64,000 nt of DNA, from assembly GCF_023923205.1 (NCBI RefSeq), contig NZ_CP099490.1, positions 1 through 64,000 on the forward strand, written 5' to 3'. Made by a program: the position numbers and the translations under genes. Under the pieces are notes generated by a model. It had not been told where the DNA came from. It was given only the letters and a program-made list of their open reading frames with translations, and ran no database searches. Each line of letters opens with the position of its first letter. The stretch's first letter is position 1. The DNA is from Ornithinimicrobium cryptoxanthini. Its GTDB lineage: Bacteria > Actinomycetota > Actinomycetes > Actinomycetales > Dermatophilaceae. Positions 20,808 through 27,290 of this stretch are shown piece after piece.

Positions 20808-21383
20808 CTAGAGGAACCCGGTCGGGTCGAACTCCTCGATCGGGATGACCCGCAGACGGGGCAGCATCGAGGTGAACGCGTGCACGTCATACTCCAGGTC
20901 AAAGGGCTCGAGGCCCTGCTCGATCAGGGGTGTGAAGCCGTGGTTGCGGAACTCGGCGAAGGCGATCACGCCCACGCGGCGCTCGGTGCCCAGCAGCGGC
21001 TCGAGGTCCTCCAGGAAGTCGCCGTCGTGGCTGACCAGCATGACGTCGCCGTCGCGCTCGGCCAGCGACTGCAGGGTGCGCTGGATCGCGATGTCGACGA
21101 TCTTCTCGTCGGGCGGTCCGGACAGCGGCACGGGGACATAGCCGATGGCCCGCAGCGCCTGGACGAACGACATCGGCATGCCGCTCGAGGCGTTGAGGAA
21201 GAACAGGCCGCGCGGCGAGCCACCCCACTTCTCGCGGGTGAAGGCCAGCAACCGGTCCCAGCGGGGCCGCTCCTGCGGCTCGGGCCGCCGGCCCAGGATG
21301 GAGGTGCCGAGGGTCGCGTCGATGTTCTCACCATCGACCAGCAGGTATGACGTGGGCTGGGTGTTGTCGTCCACCGCGGCCAC
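20808..21383 (-). CDS. NYN-domain (PIN-like) putative ribonuclease
   Basis: A 191-residue NYN-domain protein. Acidic residues typical of the metal-dependent PIN-like fold are visible in YLLVDGENID (near the N terminus), DEKIVDIAIQ and VSHDGDFLEDLEPLL. Families with this domain include LabA/DUF88-type proteins and RNA-processing nucleases. It lies 18 bases after the esterase gene and on the same strand, so it may be the last gene of the acyltransferase/ATP-grasp/S51/esterase operon; a separate promoter cannot be excluded. The substrate is unknown. Confidence 0.82.
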   Translation of the reverse strand: MAAVDDNTQPTSYLLVDGENIDATLGTSILGRRPEPQERPRWDRLLAFTREKWGGSPRGLFFLNASSGMPMSFVQALRAIGYVPVPLSGPPDEKIVDIAIQRTLQSLAERDGDVMLVSHDGDFLEDLEPLLGTERRVGVIAFAEFRNHGFTPLIEQGLEPFDLEYDVHAFTSMLPRLRVIPIEEFDPTGFL

Positions 21384-21401
21384 CTTCTTTCTTAGGAGGA
21401 A

Positions 21402-22586
21402 CTATTCATAGACAAACTTCTGCGGCCCGGGATAGATCCAGGACAGGCCGTCGCGCAGGCGGTCGCGCCAGTTCTCCCAGGAGTGCCCGTCCCGCGCCTC
21501 GACATAGCGGACGCTACTCCCCGTCGACTCCCACACGGGGACCATCGAGCGGTTGGGCACGATGAGCGGCTCATAGATGCCGCACGAGACGAAGAGCCGG
21601 TCGGCCACCTTGCGCGGGCGGGCGCGATAGCGGTTCATGAACTTCACGACCGGGTCGAACACCGGTCCGCCGCCGTGCTCGCTGCCGATGTCGGTGAAGA
21701 CGAACGACCCCGACTGCAGCAGCAGCGAGCCGAAGACGTCGGGGTTGCGGAAGGCAACCGACATGGACGCGACCGCACCGAAGCTGGCGCCCATCAGGGC
21801 CCGTCCCTCCGGCCGCCGCATCACCGGGTAGTGCTCCTCCAGGTGCGGGATGAGCTCGTGGATCAGGTGCCGGGCGTGCGGGGCATAGTTGGGGTACTCC
21901 CGGTTGCGGTCCCCCGGGTTGGTGAAGACCACGATCGTCTCGGCCATGTCCAGGCTGTGGATCAGGTTGTCGAGCACGATCTTCATCGAGGAGAAGTTGA
22001 GGTAGTCGTCACCGTCGTGCACGATCAGCAGGGGATAGATCGTGCTCGGGCGGAAGCGGGCCGGCAGATAGACGCGGCTGTGCGTCTCTCGCCGCAGAGC
22101 CTTGGAGTGCAGCACCAGGTCGTGCAGCTCCCCCGGACGGGCATCGGGGTCGAACTGGGTCCACTCCGGCGTCTGGTAGCCGATCGCCTGGCACACCGAC
22201 GAGGAGCCGACGGGGCTGTGGGCGACGAGCGGGTTGAGCGGGTCGTTGCCCTGCACCACCTGCTCGCCGTGGCGCACCTCCAGCTGATACTCCACCCGTG
22301 AGCCGTAGGGGAGCTCGATGACGCAGAACCAGAGGCTGGTGCCCTCGATGCGGTGCAGGGGCACCCGCTGGGGCTGGTTGACGATGCGGTGCAGCAGGTG
22401 CACCTCGTCGGCCTCGCCCCGGAAGAGGAAGGTGCAGTTGGCTCCCTCGACGATCGGCACGGCCCGGTCCTGCAGGAAGCCGTCGACGGACTCCTCGGAG
22501 CGGTGCTCCAGCGCCCGGAACGCGTTGATCGCCAGCTTGACCCTGGTCGTGTCCCGCATCGGCTGGGGCGGCAGCGAGATGCTCAT
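21402..22586 (-). CDS. Alpha/beta-hydrolase esterase with Fes-like N-terminal domain
   Basis: A 394-residue putative cytoplasmic esterase (no signal peptide). Residues ~45-125 look like the beta-sandwich domain of enterochelin-esterase-type proteins (FRGEADEVHLLHRI ... VEYQLEVRHG). Residues ~150-394 are the esterase-D-like alpha/beta hydrolase with the nucleophile elbow GASFG (Ser268) and a late DGHSW (His368), fitting a Ser-Asp-His triad. Start ATG 22586 overlaps the stop of the S51-like gene (ATGA), so the two are co-translated. Enzymes of this architecture split ester or amide bonds of siderophore-like or peptide-like substrates, but the substrate here is unknown. Context points to a small molecule made by the ATP-grasp enzyme. 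Confidence 0.85.
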   Translation of the reverse strand: MSISLPPQPMRDTTRVKLAINAFRALEHRSEESVDGFLQDRAVPIVEGANCTFLFRGEADEVHLLHRIVNQPQRVPLHRIEGTSLWFCVIELPYGSRVEYQLEVRHGEQVVQGNDPLNPLVAHSPVGSSSVCQAIGYQTPEWTQFDPDARPGELHDLVLHSKALRRETHSRVYLPARFRPSTIYPLLIVHDGDDYLNFSSMKIVLDNLIHSLDMAETIVVFTNPGDRNREYPNYAPHARHLIHELIPHLEEHYPVMRRPEGRALMGASFGAVASMSVAFRNPDVFGSLLLQSGSFVFTDIGSEHGGGPVFDPVVKFMNRYRARPRKVADRLFVSCGIYEPLIVPNRSMVPVWESTGSSVRYVEARDGHSWENWRDRLRDGLSWIYPGPQKFVYE

Positions 22587-23530
22587 CGCAGGTTCCCCCT
22601 CACGGTCGCGCGGCCGTCGATGCCGAGCACCGGGGCGGTGTCGGGCAAGCCTCCGTCGGGCAGTATGTCGACCCGGGCCCGTTCGTCGAGCAGCAGACAG
22701 TGTGCGGGGGCGAACCGCCGGGCGAGCACGCCCATGCGGCCTGCGTTGGACAGCTCGAGCCGCTCCCGGGCCGCCGGCAGCGCGACGGTCTCTCTGACGA
22801 GGCCGAGCCCCTGGGTGAACACCTCGCTGACCGAGGGTCCGTGGGCCGCCCGGTCGTGGAAGAGCACCACCTGGTCGGTCAGGGCCATCGCCCCCGCCCC
22901 CCAGGCGATGACCGGCACCTGCAGATGGGGGCCGATGTTGAACAGGTGCAGCGCCCCCACGAGGACCCCCACATGCCCACCGGGGATGAGGATCACCTCT
23001 GCGTCCGCGAGCTCCCTGCTGATCAGCTCGCGCAGCAGGGCCACGGCAGCCCGCTCGTGCGGTGGCCACCTGCTCCAGAACTCGGCGTGCACCTCGCTGA
23101 CCCGCTCCAGGTGGCGCGTGTCGATCTCGCGCATGATCTGCTCGGCGTCGGCCTGGGCCATCTCCTGGACATGCGCTGATCGGGGCGCCCGGTCAGCTAT
23201 GGCCCGCAGGGCAGCGACAACGTGGTCCAGCGCCACGACATACAGATCCTGCATCTCCTCCAGGACCAGCCGGCGCGCGCGGTCGGCTGCGGCGAACTCG
23301 GGGTCGGCCTCCCAGACCTCCTGCATCCGGTGCCAGAGCCGCAGGTTGACGGCGTTGCCCTCCGCGAACTGGACCAGCAACCCGTCCTCCGGCTCGCGCT
23401 CGCGCCAGCCGGCGTTGATGATGGCCGCCCGCGCACCCGTGAGCTGCAGGGATGCCAGCACGCCCTCGATCCGCGGCGTGCGCTGGGGTCCCAGGAGAGT
23501 GATCGAGGCCGGCTGGTCCTCAGCTGGCAT
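22583..23530 (-). CDS. Peptidase-S51 / type-1 glutamine-amidotransferase-like protein, nucleophile apparently lost
   Basis: A 315-residue protein of the S51/cyanophycinase-like fold. It has the N-terminal LLGPQ strand, a glycine turn LIPGGHVGVLVGALH (181-195), a strand-turn VPVIAWGAGAMAL (205-217) and a GLGLV segment (241-245). In active family members the strand-turn holds the nucleophile in a W-S-A-G-A type motif. Here it reads W210-G211-A-G-A, so the serine is replaced by glycine, which suggests a non-catalytic or altered protein. Residues ~75-160 are a helical insert. It overlaps the ATP-grasp gene by 11 bases and the esterase gene by 4. Confidence 0.72.
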   Translation of the reverse strand: MPAEDQPASITLLGPQRTPRIEGVLASLQLTGARAAIINAGWREREPEDGLLVQFAEGNAVNLRLWHRMQEVWEADPEFAAADRARRLVLEEMQDLYVVALDHVVAALRAIADRAPRSAHVQEMAQADAEQIMREIDTRHLERVSEVHAEFWSRWPPHERAAVALLRELISRELADAEVILIPGGHVGVLVGALHLFNIGPHLQVPVIAWGAGAMALTDQVVLFHDRAAHGPSVSEVFTQGLGLVRETVALPAARERLELSNAGRMGVLARRFAPAHCLLLDERARVDILPDGGLPDTAPVLGIDGRATVRGNLR

Positions 23531-24740
23531 GGACCTGCACAGCCTGGCCCACGTTGTCCATCATGGAGCGCAGCACGTCGTAGTCGGGGTGCCGCATCCG
23601 GATGTAGGCGTTGGCCATGTAGCCCGCCTCGATGGGCTGGGTGGGGGTGCCGGCGCCGGGCAGGTGCGCGTCGATGATCCACCGCCCGAGCCGGTTCTCG
23701 ACATCCTCCAGGCCGCTGTAGCCGGTGATGACGCCGTCGCGGTCCGGGCGCAGGGCGATGATGCCGGCCGAGTGGCTGCGCGTGGGCCGCGTCCGCACCT
23801 CGCCGTGCACGATGGCGTCGGCCCAGGCGCGATAGGTGTCCAGGTCGTTGCCGGCGGAGTAGAGGTCGTAGCAGCCGACACCGGGCGGTCGGGCGCCGAT
23901 CTCGCTGAACTTCAGGCCCTTGGGGCCGTGGAACCACTCCATGTGGGTCGCGGAGGTCCCGATGCCGAGGGCGGTGATGACCTTCTGGCCCAGCTCGCGG
24001 ATCTCGTCGTAGAGCCCGCCCCCGTCGATCCGGTTGGTGGAGATGTAGACCGGTGAGATCCAACGGGTGCGCATCGCCTCCAGCACACCGGGGAAGTAGT
24101 GGCAGGCGAAGTCCACCTGCGGGCGCCCGTCGACGCAGATCGTGTCATAGAAGCCCTCGTGCCCCTCGATGAACTCCTCGACCGCGATCGAGGTCGTGCC
24201 GGGGCCAAACGTGGCCAGTGCCGCCTCGAGCTGACTGTCGTCCTCGACCTTGCTGGTGCCGGCCGCCCCCGCGCCGTCGCGAGGCTTGAGGATCAGCGGG
24301 TAGCCGACGCGCTCGGCAAACTCGCGCACCTCCGCCAGGCTGGAGGCAGCCGTCGAGGCCGCGGTGGGCACCCCGACCTGGCGCAGCGCCTCCTTCATCG
24401 AGGGCTTGTCGCGGCAGAGCCAGGTGGTGTGCACGGAGGTGCCGGGGATGCCAGTCGCCTCACGGACCTGAGCGGCCGGCATGGTGTGCGACTCGATGGT
24501 CGACTCCAGTGCGTCCACCCAGACCAGGCCCTGCAGCTTGCGGACCACGTGGGTCATCGCGCCGACGTCGGTGACGGACCCGACCTGCTCGTAGTGCTGC
24601 ATCCACGACTTGAGCTCGTCGTCGAGGTAGTCCACCGGTGTCTCGCCCACTCCCAGCACGTTGGCGCCGGCCTCGGCCAGCGCCCGCACGAACTCGCGCT
24701 GGTTGCGAGGGAAGTGCGGCTCGACGAAGACGATGTTCAC
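23520..24740 (-). CDS. ATP-grasp ligase (carboxylate-amine ligase-like)
   Basis: A 406-residue ATP-grasp enzyme of the class that joins a carboxylate to an amine through an acyl-phosphate. The pre-ATP-grasp Rossmann half starts MNIVFVEPHFPRNQREFVRALAEAG. The ATP-binding lysine is in YPLILKPRDGAGAAGTSKV. The metal-binding end reads LKFSEIGARPPG, where many members have E-I-N-x-R. GTG 24740 gives a clean Rossmann start; GTG 24758 adds six residues. No clear RBS precedes either. It is the first gene of a trio overlapping by 11 and 4 bases, and lies 75 bases after the acyltransferase-SGNH gene. Product unknown: a peptide or amide is the family expectation. Confidence 0.85.
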   Translation of the reverse strand: MNIVFVEPHFPRNQREFVRALAEAGANVLGVGETPVDYLDDELKSWMQHYEQVGSVTDVGAMTHVVRKLQGLVWVDALESTIESHTMPAAQVREATGIPGTSVHTTWLCRDKPSMKEALRQVGVPTAASTAASSLAEVREFAERVGYPLILKPRDGAGAAGTSKVEDDSQLEAALATFGPGTTSIAVEEFIEGHEGFYDTICVDGRPQVDFACHYFPGVLEAMRTRWISPVYISTNRIDGGGLYDEIRELGQKVITALGIGTSATHMEWFHGPKGLKFSEIGARPPGVGCYDLYSAGNDLDTYRAWADAIVHGEVRTRPTRSHSAGIIALRPDRDGVITGYSGLEDVENRLGRWIIDAHLPGAGTPTQPIEAGYMANAYIRMRHPDYDVLRSMMDNVGQAVQVHAS

Positions 24741-24815
24741 GAGACGAGCCTGCCACACAACAGGCCCACGCGGCAGTATGCCGAGGGTCGGGTCCCGGTG
24801 TTCAGGTGCCGGTGG

Positions 24816-27131
24816 TCAGCCGCCGGTGCGCGCCAGCTCGTCGAAGGCCCTGGCGACGACGGCGGCATAGACGTGCATGCCCTCGATGTCGGGGTGCACC
24901 CGGTCGGACTGCAGCACGCCCGGCTGCTCAGCGATGGTGGCCTGCCAGTCGCCGACGACTGCGTTGGGGTAGTCAGCGACAACCTTCTCGATGGTCTCGT
25001 TGGAGTCGGGGATGAAGGTGCTCGAGCCGTAGAGGTTCATCACCACGACCTGGCGGTCCGGGCCGAGGGTGTCGAGGAAGGTGCGCAGCGCCTCCCCGTC
25101 GACGCCGGCGTTGGTGCCGAAGTGGACGATGACGTTGTCCCGGACCTCGCCCTGGGCCAGCGCGGAGGCCAGCACCGGGTTGGCGTCCTTCCACTGCCGG
25201 TTGGACTTGGCCGCGAAGTTCATCTCGGGGAAGCGCCATTTCAGGCCGTCGGCGCTGGTCACGACCAGGGAGTCGCCGATCGCGGTGAGCCGCCCGCTGT
25301 CGGGGACCAGCAGTCCCTCGTCGTCCTCGTGCCAGCCGTCGGGGATCGCGCCGGGCGCGTGGGGTGCGTCGGCCTCGGGCTGCCCGCCCGCCTCGTGCCC
25401 GTCCTGGTCAGCGTCCTTGCTGTCGCTGTCGGCCTGCTCCTGCGCGGCGGCCGTCCCGGCGTCGACCAGTCCGCCCATGGCCTGGGCGAAACCGTCGGCG
25501 GCCGAGTCACCCGTGACCTCGCCCGCCGCGCCGGCCTCCCCCGCGGTGTCCCCGTCCGTCTGGGCTCCGTCGGTGGTCTGGCCGTCGGTGGTGTCTCCGT
25601 CTGCTGCCGCTGGCGCGGCCTGGGGTGTCGGCATCCCCAGCGAGACCCCGCCGAGCAGGCCCGCGCGGGCACTGACGTCCGGCGCGGATCCGTTGAGCTG
25701 GGCCTCGGCGGTCTCGATGGCCTGCTGCGTCTGCGACTTCTCGGGGGCGGTGGCGATCGCCACCGCCGCGAGCAGGAGCAGTGTCGCCGTGGACCCGGCC
25801 ACGACGCGGGAGGTGAGCGTGCCGGCGCCGACCATTCGCTGGCGCACCGCGCCGAAGGAGGCGCGGAAGCCGTCGCGCCGCACGGGCGTCTCGATGAACC
25901 GGAAGGAGAGCTCGCTGAGCACCAGGGTCAGGACCAGCGCCCCGGTGAGGGTGAGCGCCCCGCGCACGGTGCCCTCGGCATACGGGAAGAGGGTCGCGAC
26001 GATCATCAGCACGGCCCAGTGCCACAGGTAGATGCCATAGGACCGCTCGCCGATCCACCGCAGCGGTGCCAGCGACATCATCGTCCGCCAGGGGCTGCCT
26101 GACTCCAGCAGCCCGGCGATGAGCACGACCGTGGCCAGGCAGGCCAGCAGGAGGCCGCCGCGGAAGGTCCAGGGGTTGCCCTCGCTGAGCAGGGCCATCA
26201 GCCCGACCAGGACCAGCAGGGCCACCCCGACGGCCGGCATGCGCCAACGCCTCCAGGCGGCCGTGCGCAGGCCGGCCCGGTGCGGGGCGGCCCAGGCGAA
26301 GGCGAGCGCCACGCCGAGCATCAGCCCGAACAGGTGGGTGTCGGTGCCGTAGTAGATGCGCGTCGAGTCCTCGTCGGGCGAGAACAGCACAGCCATGGCC
26401 ATCGCGGAGGCGAGGGCGAGCGCCAGGACGAAGCCGATGCGCTGCTTCGCAGTGCGGGTGACCGCCAGCAGGACCACCAGCCCGATCGGCCAGAGGAGAT
26501 AGAACTGCTCCTCGACGGCGAGCGACCAGAAGTTGATGAAGAGCAGTGGCGAGGTGCTGTGGAAATAGCTGGCGCCAGCTGCCACCTCGAGCCAGTTGGT
26601 GCTGAAGGTCATCGCGCCGAGCGCCTGGCGGCCGATGTTGACCAGCAGGTCGCCGCCGACGAGTCTGGCTGCGGCCACGCTGAGGACCACCACCGTGACG
26701 AGGGCGGGCAGGAGGCGGCGCGCGCGCCGCAACCAGAACTGCGGCAGGTCGATGCGACCCTGTCGGCTGATCTCGCGCAGCAGCAGGGTCGTGATCAGAA
26801 AGCCGGAGAGCACAAAGAAGACGTCGACGCCGATGAAGCCGGCCGGCAGCGTGTTGGGAGTGAAGTGGAAGACCAGGACGCCGATGATGGCGATGGCCCG
26901 CAGGCCGTCCAGACCGTGGATGTGTCCCGGTCGCGGGTCGACGTCCGTGGGACCGCGCCCCCGCCGACGCTGCTCAGAGACGGTCGTGGTGGGCGCGATC
27001 ACGGGGCGTTCGAGGAGGGCGGTGTCGGCGGAGGAGCTGCGCGACGCCGGGCTGGAGCGAGCCTGCGTGGCTCGCGGGTCGTGGGCAGGCGTGGAGGATC
27101 GCCGACGTGACTCCTCGGCCTGAGCGGACAC
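24816..27131 (-). CDS. Acyltransferase-3 membrane protein with C-terminal SGNH domain (OatA-like)
   Basis: A 771-residue fusion. Residues ~60-430 are the acyltransferase-3 membrane domain: the first conserved motif HIHGLDGLRAIAIIGVLVFHF, then VFFVLSGFLITTLLL and about ten transmembrane segments. A long Gly/Ala/Asp/Thr linker (~470-600) follows. The C-terminal SGNH hydrolase-like domain has the Ser block AIGDSLVV, HFGTNAG and the catalytic pair in DRVHPDIEG. Such proteins move acyl groups across the membrane onto peptidoglycan or surface sugars. The GTG at 27131 is preferred to GTG 27164 because GGGGAGGAGG lies just upstream of it. It may head the operon containing the ATP-grasp trio. Confidence 0.88.
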   Translation of the reverse strand: MSAQAEESRRRSSTPAHDPRATQARSSPASRSSSADTALLERPVIAPTTTVSEQRRRGRGPTDVDPRPGHIHGLDGLRAIAIIGVLVFHFTPNTLPAGFIGVDVFFVLSGFLITTLLLREISRQGRIDLPQFWLRRARRLLPALVTVVVLSVAAARLVGGDLLVNIGRQALGAMTFSTNWLEVAAGASYFHSTSPLLFINFWSLAVEEQFYLLWPIGLVVLLAVTRTAKQRIGFVLALALASAMAMAVLFSPDEDSTRIYYGTDTHLFGLMLGVALAFAWAAPHRAGLRTAAWRRWRMPAVGVALLVLVGLMALLSEGNPWTFRGGLLLACLATVVLIAGLLESGSPWRTMMSLAPLRWIGERSYGIYLWHWAVLMIVATLFPYAEGTVRGALTLTGALVLTLVLSELSFRFIETPVRRDGFRASFGAVRQRMVGAGTLTSRVVAGSTATLLLLAAVAIATAPEKSQTQQAIETAEAQLNGSAPDVSARAGLLGGVSLGMPTPQAAPAAADGDTTDGQTTDGAQTDGDTAGEAGAAGEVTGDSAADGFAQAMGGLVDAGTAAAQEQADSDSKDADQDGHEAGGQPEADAPHAPGAIPDGWHEDDEGLLVPDSGRLTAIGDSLVVTSADGLKWRFPEMNFAAKSNRQWKDANPVLASALAQGEVRDNVIVHFGTNAGVDGEALRTFLDTLGPDRQVVVMNLYGSSTFIPDSNETIEKVVADYPNAVVGDWQATIAEQPGVLQSDRVHPDIEGMHVYAAVVARAFDELARTGG

Positions 27132-27290
27132 GGAACCTCCTCCCCGCAGCGCGACACCTGGCACTCAGGTTAGGGCGACCGCACGGGTTGAGTGCCGACG
27201 CCACGCGGACGAAGACCTGAATCTTCTGTGACTCCTGGTGCACGTGTGGCTCACGCTGTGCTCCTCCACGGTGTGCCACAGCGGTCTGCG

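Follow-up and report, generated by a model that had tools for sequence, protein, structure and literature searches.

A three-gene ATP-grasp, S51-fold and esterase locus in Ornithinimicrobium, possibly reduced from an eight-gene set linked to glycogen synthase

L-amino acid ligases carry out dipeptide synthesis, S51 enzymes cut small peptides, and RimK modifies the tail of ribosomal protein S6. The bacterial glycogen operon (glgC, glgA, glgP, glgX) is, to our knowledge, without ATP-grasp ligases. Relatives of these systems, along with esterases related to Fes and to the feruloyl/CE1 enzymes, meet in an eight-gene set composed of the glycogen synthase GlgA, three paralogous ATP-grasp ligases (A, B, and C), a Ddl/RimK-like ligase, an S51-fold protein, and two esterases (EST and est2). 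In the window, by which we mean the whole 64,000-nucleotide stretch of Ornithinimicrobium cryptoxanthini DNA analyzed here, only A, the S51 protein, and EST stand together. We read this trio, with a probability of roughly 45%, as a reduced actinobacterial form of the eight-gene set, which would then be a glycogen-tied, amide-forming system. The larger set and its tie to glycogen synthase were absent from an earlier note on this DNA.

Five minus-strand genes lie at the positions given by that note, with the acyltransferase gene ending 75 bases before A and the NYN gene starting 18 bases after EST. Pfam profiles match four of the five proteins at E ≤ 1, the S51-like protein being the exception. 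The features are as follows.

20808..21383, minus strand: NYN-domain gene, found after EST in the close relatives L007, L008, and L009; outside the wider set
21402..22586, minus strand: EST esterase, 394 aa, with an Enterochelin_N-like N-terminal part and a PF00756 domain (1.6e-22)
22278..22433, minus strand: Enterochelin_N-like stretch of EST, residues 52-103 (window E 0.037, under the cut-off)
22583..22586, minus strand: 4-base overlap (ATGA) of the S51 and EST genes, from the sequence
22583..23530, minus strand: S51/class-I-amidotransferase-fold protein, 315 aa
22898..22900, minus strand: codon of Gly211 at the S51 nucleophile position (AW-G-AGAM), a position assigned by motif (Ser of the xSAGA elbow) and not by residue-level structural alignment; among 45 aligned sequences, counting that of the window, 37 have Ser, 6 have Gly, and 2 have Ala
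23054..23305, minus strand: long helical hairpin in the S51 fold, residues 76-159, from model secondary structure, helix-only structural matches, and conservation
23520..23530, minus strand: 11-base overlap of the A and S51 genes, from the sequence
23520..24740, minus strand: ATP-grasp ligase A, 406 aa, L-amino-acid-ligase-like (PF02222 5.8e-10; profile against 4wd3 E 4.1e-26)
24816..27164, minus strand: Acyl_transf_3 membrane acyltransferase, a neighbor outside the set; seen in a single locus of the 47 compared, at a distance of ~5.6 kb

Ligase A scores above the curated Pfam cut-off for PF02222 (39.5 bits against 27), and its best solved relatives are L-amino-acid ligases. Its profile matches the L-amino acid ligase structure 4wd3, which we take to be RizA, over profile positions 44-349 of 406, and BacD (3wnz) at 3.5e-15. 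A shares with these enzymes and with 3vot the common ATP-grasp domain, a length of ~410 residues, and aligned conserved residues, although its relationship to 4wd3 is remote, at 95 bits over 306 positions. Seven residues are invariant in all 65 aligned sequences (K112, K152, E188, E268, E280, R284, and G287), and the first six presumably fill the corresponding ATP-grasp roles. Close alignment of the ligase with an enzyme of known substrate, which the earlier note named as a ground for refutation, was not observed: besides the best solved match, to L-amino-acid ligases at 4e-26, the best 25 of 58 NCBIfam matches, which include purine and CPSase families, all fall far under their cut-offs, so that a known purine or arginine ligase was rejected as its identity. 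A is an L-amino-acid-ligase-like ATP-grasp enzyme, with dipeptide formation from two L-amino acids as a candidate activity. Its setting differs from that of the described L-amino-acid ligases in that three paralogues travel here with a fourth ligase, two esterases, the S51 protein, and GlgA.

The 315-residue protein has an S51 fold, as the earlier note had proposed. A structure comparison places its model closest to cyanophycinase relatives; PF03575 gives no match at E ≤ 1 in the window protein and matches 28 of 38 aligned relatives at that threshold. Compared with cyanophycinase, pseudo-CphB, and peptidase E (MEROPS S51), it differs in two respects. It carries a helical insertion of ~84 residues, in which Asp137 is present in 45/45, Tyr97 in 44/45 (one gap), and His140 in 37/45 sequences, and the nucleophile Ser has given way to Gly in the window and to Gly or Ala in another 7 of the 45 sequences. 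The nucleophile has gone from this S51-fold protein in more than one lineage. Because the nucleophile position is Gly, the hydrolytic role that the earlier note gave to the protein is doubtful in the window, where hydrolysis has probably been lost and binding kept. The helical insertion (23054-23305) may be a site for binding a partner or ligand.

EST has the same PF00756 domain as Fes and the feruloyl/CE1 esterases, with Ser268, Glu339, and His368 conserved in 45/45 aligned sequences; Glu339 we take, from Fes, to be the catalytic acid. The EST profile matches PF00756 esterase structures at E values from 2e-22 to 4e-13, among them Fes (2b20) at 2.2e-22, and against 6mou, 6ne9, and 7b5v, which are CE1/feruloyl enzymes with a CBM48-like or other carbohydrate-binding N-domain, the match covers the esterase domain only. 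Enterochelin_N matches all 30 EST family members at E ≤ 1 (best 1.5e-7; the window protein is weak). CBM20 is matched weakly by 12/30 (best 0.0019) and CBM48 weakly by 6/30 (best 0.03), and there are hints that the N-terminal part could bind glucan. Unlike the genes for Fes and the CE1 esterases, that for EST comes after the S51 gene in 43/43 loci. The second esterase, est2, keeps a G-x-S-x-G motif in 27/27 sequences.

All three window genes are maintained, since dN/dS against two Ornithinimicrobium loci is low for each (~0.10-0.11 for ligase A, 0.27 for the S51-like gene, and 0.24-0.26 for EST). Ligase A of the window is 92% identical to that of close Ornithinimicrobium relatives and shares 49-68% identity with its counterparts in other phyla or families. 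A promoter scan returned no sigma-70-type site, and one terminator-like site was found where shuffled sequences give 1.0. An anti-phage defense system was also considered and rejected, as PADLOC models match none of the five window proteins at E ≤ 1.

The trio is a conserved unit across genera, as the earlier note had supposed, and reaches at least four phyla. A pattern scan for the S51-like protein over 84,980 species genomes yielded ten loci, including Myxococcales, Kofleriaceae, Planctomycetota, and Gammaproteobacteria, and relatives of A and EST lie near the S51-like gene in eight of them; the exceptions are L008, whose contig begins within the S51 gene, and L011, which has no visible EST. 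Of 197 genomes sampled from the window phylum, five carry the S51-like protein (E ≤ 1e-5), and these are exactly the five with A (E ≤ 1e-160) and with EST (E ≤ 1e-170); below EST, the best-scoring esterase reaches 1.2e-61. In 190 Myxococcota genomes, A (E ≤ 1e-90) and S51 (E ≤ 1e-60) each occur in 62, both in 61, and either in 63, at cut-offs which, like the other family and paralogue cut-offs, were chosen after the score gaps had been seen. The two Myxococcota exceptions are G573, with S51 and no A, and G587, whose contig runs out ~300 bases from the end of A. A-family matches were found in 30/244 Planctomycetota genomes (at 1e-60) and in 2/275 Gammaproteobacteria genomes (at 1e-30), one of the latter being the genome on which that sample was centered.

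To describe the surroundings of A, 20-kb stretches were taken from 32 of the 62 Myxococcota and 19 of the 30 Planctomycetota genomes, picked mainly by flank length, plus others. The main scan covered 67 loci, three of which (L071, L072, and L101) were centered elsewhere than A, and found A in 64, S51, EST, and B in 44 each, C in 36, the RimK-like ligase and GlgA in 32 each, and est2 in 28. A, S51, and EST occur together in 18/32 Myxococcota loci (S51 in 18, EST in 19), 13/19 Planctomycetota, 4/4 of the actinobacterial sample, 2/2 gamma, and 2/2 Ornithinimicrobium loci. All eight families share one stretch in 16/59 grouped loci: 5/32 in Myxococcota, 9/19 in Planctomycetota, 1/4 in the actinobacterial sample, 1/2 in Gammaproteobacteria, and 0/2 in Ornithinimicrobium. 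For the Ddl/RimK-like member, even the best match to a solved ATP-grasp enzyme is distant (7.4e-4).

Gene pairs were scored as linked when on the same strand with centers within 3 kb, the denominator being the loci with both genes. The S51-EST pair is fixed, with S51 just upstream of EST in 43/43 loci, and close linkage also holds for RimK-like-est2 (25/26), EST-RimK-like (26/29), GlgA-A (22/31), and B-C (20/31). The overlapping trio of the earlier note thus stood in part: both of its overlaps are real and the S51-EST junction is general, but the A-S51 overlap is local, as this pair is same-strand and close in 14/44 loci and on opposite strands in 24/44. A common planctomycete layout has est2-RimK-EST-S51-B-C divergent from GlgA-A. 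Pairwise distances of the families correlate with r from 0.49 to 0.84, uncorrected for shared ancestry.

The GlgA proteins of these loci belong to the GT5 starch/glycogen synthases (PF08323 matches of, e.g., 2.8e-67 and 3.6e-73). GlgA was present in the fetched stretch in 17/19 Planctomycetota, 10/32 Myxococcota, 1/2 gamma, 1/4 of the actinobacterial sample, and 0/2 Ornithinimicrobium loci. It adjoins A on the same strand in Myxococcota, Planctomycetota, and one gamma locus, and in 21/29 same-strand pairs it lies directly before A, with a stop-to-stop distance of 1.16-1.33 kb, equal to one A gene length. In 32 hand-picked genomes of 2.9 to 11.1 Mb there are 0 to 3 GlgA copies per genome, so that, judging by copy number, GlgA would seldom fall within 10 kb by chance. 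Compared with the bacterial glycogen operon, GlgA here adjoins A, and a GlgC-type gene is present in some loci (10/67). In the gamma locus (L016/L074), a GlgC-type nucleotidyltransferase, a carbohydrate phosphorylase, and a CBM48/amylase-domain gene surround the set. In genome G199, GlgA and GlgC sit beside C and B (L072:5449-10758), with A, S51, and EST on another contig (L010), which is a second arrangement tying B and C to glycogen genes. A comparable split is seen in Ornithinimicrobium sp. F0845 (G198), where C and B lie side by side (L071:8658-11147) on a contig other than that of its A-S51-EST trio. The trio can also exist without GT5 GlgA, as PF08323 has no match at E ≤ 1e-30 in the window genome, in three of the other four trio genomes of the phylum sample (G072, G082, and G173), or in the two Ornithinimicrobium genomes checked. 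A GlgA profile and single-sequence profiles for GlgC, phosphorylase, and the amylase domain gave no match within the window itself. In the part of a 2024 review of alpha-glucan enzymes that was available, the terms "ATP-grasp" and "esterase" are absent (PMC11046441).

The genes suit a non-ribosomal pathway of amide formation that is tied to alpha-glucan metabolism and whose product is acted on by hydrolases. The ATP-grasp enzymes would activate carboxylates as acyl phosphates and build up, step by step, a short peptide or an aminoacyl group through amide (or perhaps ester) bonds. Synthesis of this product would keep pace with that of the alpha-glucan from GlgA, to which the product may be attached; EST and est2 would cut or transfer the acyl link, and the S51 protein would trim or bind the peptide portion. 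On this view, the window species retains just A, S51, and EST as a group, and the eight-gene set would account for the three-gene remnant, otherwise hard to explain, of Ornithinimicrobium and its relatives. Four amide-forming-type ligases in one set point to a metabolite or a polymer modification that the literature searched does not describe, and the tie to GlgA leads to the specific prediction that amino acids or a peptide occur with alpha-glucan. The portions of the literature that our search reached nowhere describe the eight-gene set, and a survey of ATP-grasp amidoligases, reportedly by Iyer and colleagues in 2009, lay outside that reach and may contain part of it. The set is thus common to distant phyla and apparently undescribed; we found no named pathway for it, in agreement with the earlier note.

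The product may be free or carried on protein or on glycogen, and several readings have to be weighed. The product could be a free small peptide, osmolyte, or secondary metabolite, with glycogen synthase linked by shared switching-on under nutrient or stress conditions and with EST and est2 processing a leaving group or product ester. This is a real possibility, if short of an even chance: the closest solved relatives of A are L-amino acid ligases, the trio is present in genomes without GT5 GlgA, and two amino-acid-type enzymes accompany some loci, a GCS2-CBS gene (6/67) and an N-formylglutamate amidohydrolase-like gene (5/47), but GlgA is a same-strand neighbor of A in three groups and not merely nearby. 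We consider it rather unlikely that glycogen is covalently decorated with peptide or aminoacyl groups, with the four ATP-grasp ligases making the peptide, the PF00756 enzymes adding or removing it, and GlgA in the same operon; if true, this would add a new kind of storage polymer, or a peptide that primes or tags glycogen. That the ligases modify a protein tail, which the S51 protein trims and which could belong to GlgA or a granule protein, is improbable. The distant ATP-grasp/Ddl-like character of one ligase and the small-peptide cutting of S51 enzymes would suit this idea, but it leaves the two esterases with no clear role, and no small conserved target was found among the families common to 47 loci (ORFs of at least 100 aa).

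Cyanophycin-like storage, in which A would polymerize amino acids and the S51 protein would degrade the polymer, draws on the resemblance of the S51 model to cyanophycinase relatives and on a cyanophycin synthetase profile match for A. That match is weak, however, at 42.6 bits against a cut-off of 850, the profile spans 862 positions and A only 406 residues, and the window S51 protein lacks the nucleophile; together, length, profile score, and nucleophile loss largely rule out a pathway of the cyanophycin type and leave it very improbable. Least credible is attachment of the product outside the cell by the trio together with the membrane acyltransferase. The earlier note had included this neighbor, which is on the same strand and 75 bases away, but it was not found in 46 of the 47 loci. 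The NYN nuclease, likewise counted as a part by that note, also dropped out, being present in 2/47 loci, both Ornithinimicrobium, plus L008; after EST in the close relatives it appears to be a local addition.

Two further families extend a minority of loci. One is the GCS2 ligase-type protein, which has two CBS-domain stretches (L014:12092-14014), and the other is the N-formylglutamate amidohydrolase-like family (L014:4385-5287; PF05013 1.7e-9 in L014).

The window genome has a single A-family match at 1e-30 (9 of 18 first-look candidates scored), and hence no B or C. It does contain a Ddl/RimK-like ligase paired with an est2'-type esterase at ~3.52 Mb (L101:8884-11037), with no EST' seen beside the pair in the 20-kb stretch. 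In the phylum sample, the RimK-like family occurs in 17/197 genomes, namely, all five trio genomes and 12 others, and in several of these 12 it sits in a sister module, EST'-est2'-RimK'. This module is present in L105-L109, L112, and L113, and L111, at a contig edge, has it without EST'; A, B, C, S51, and GlgA profiles gave no match in the sister-module stretches. In the trees, the sister-module esterases form clades separate from the esterases of the eight-gene set, and the window-genome esterase groups with eight est2' sequences of the sister module (support 1.0). The window-genome RimK-like ligase falls in a clade that mixes sister-module sequences with those of trio genomes L067, L114, and L115. 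By reading, the genes near the window-genome pair look like exopolysaccharide genes.
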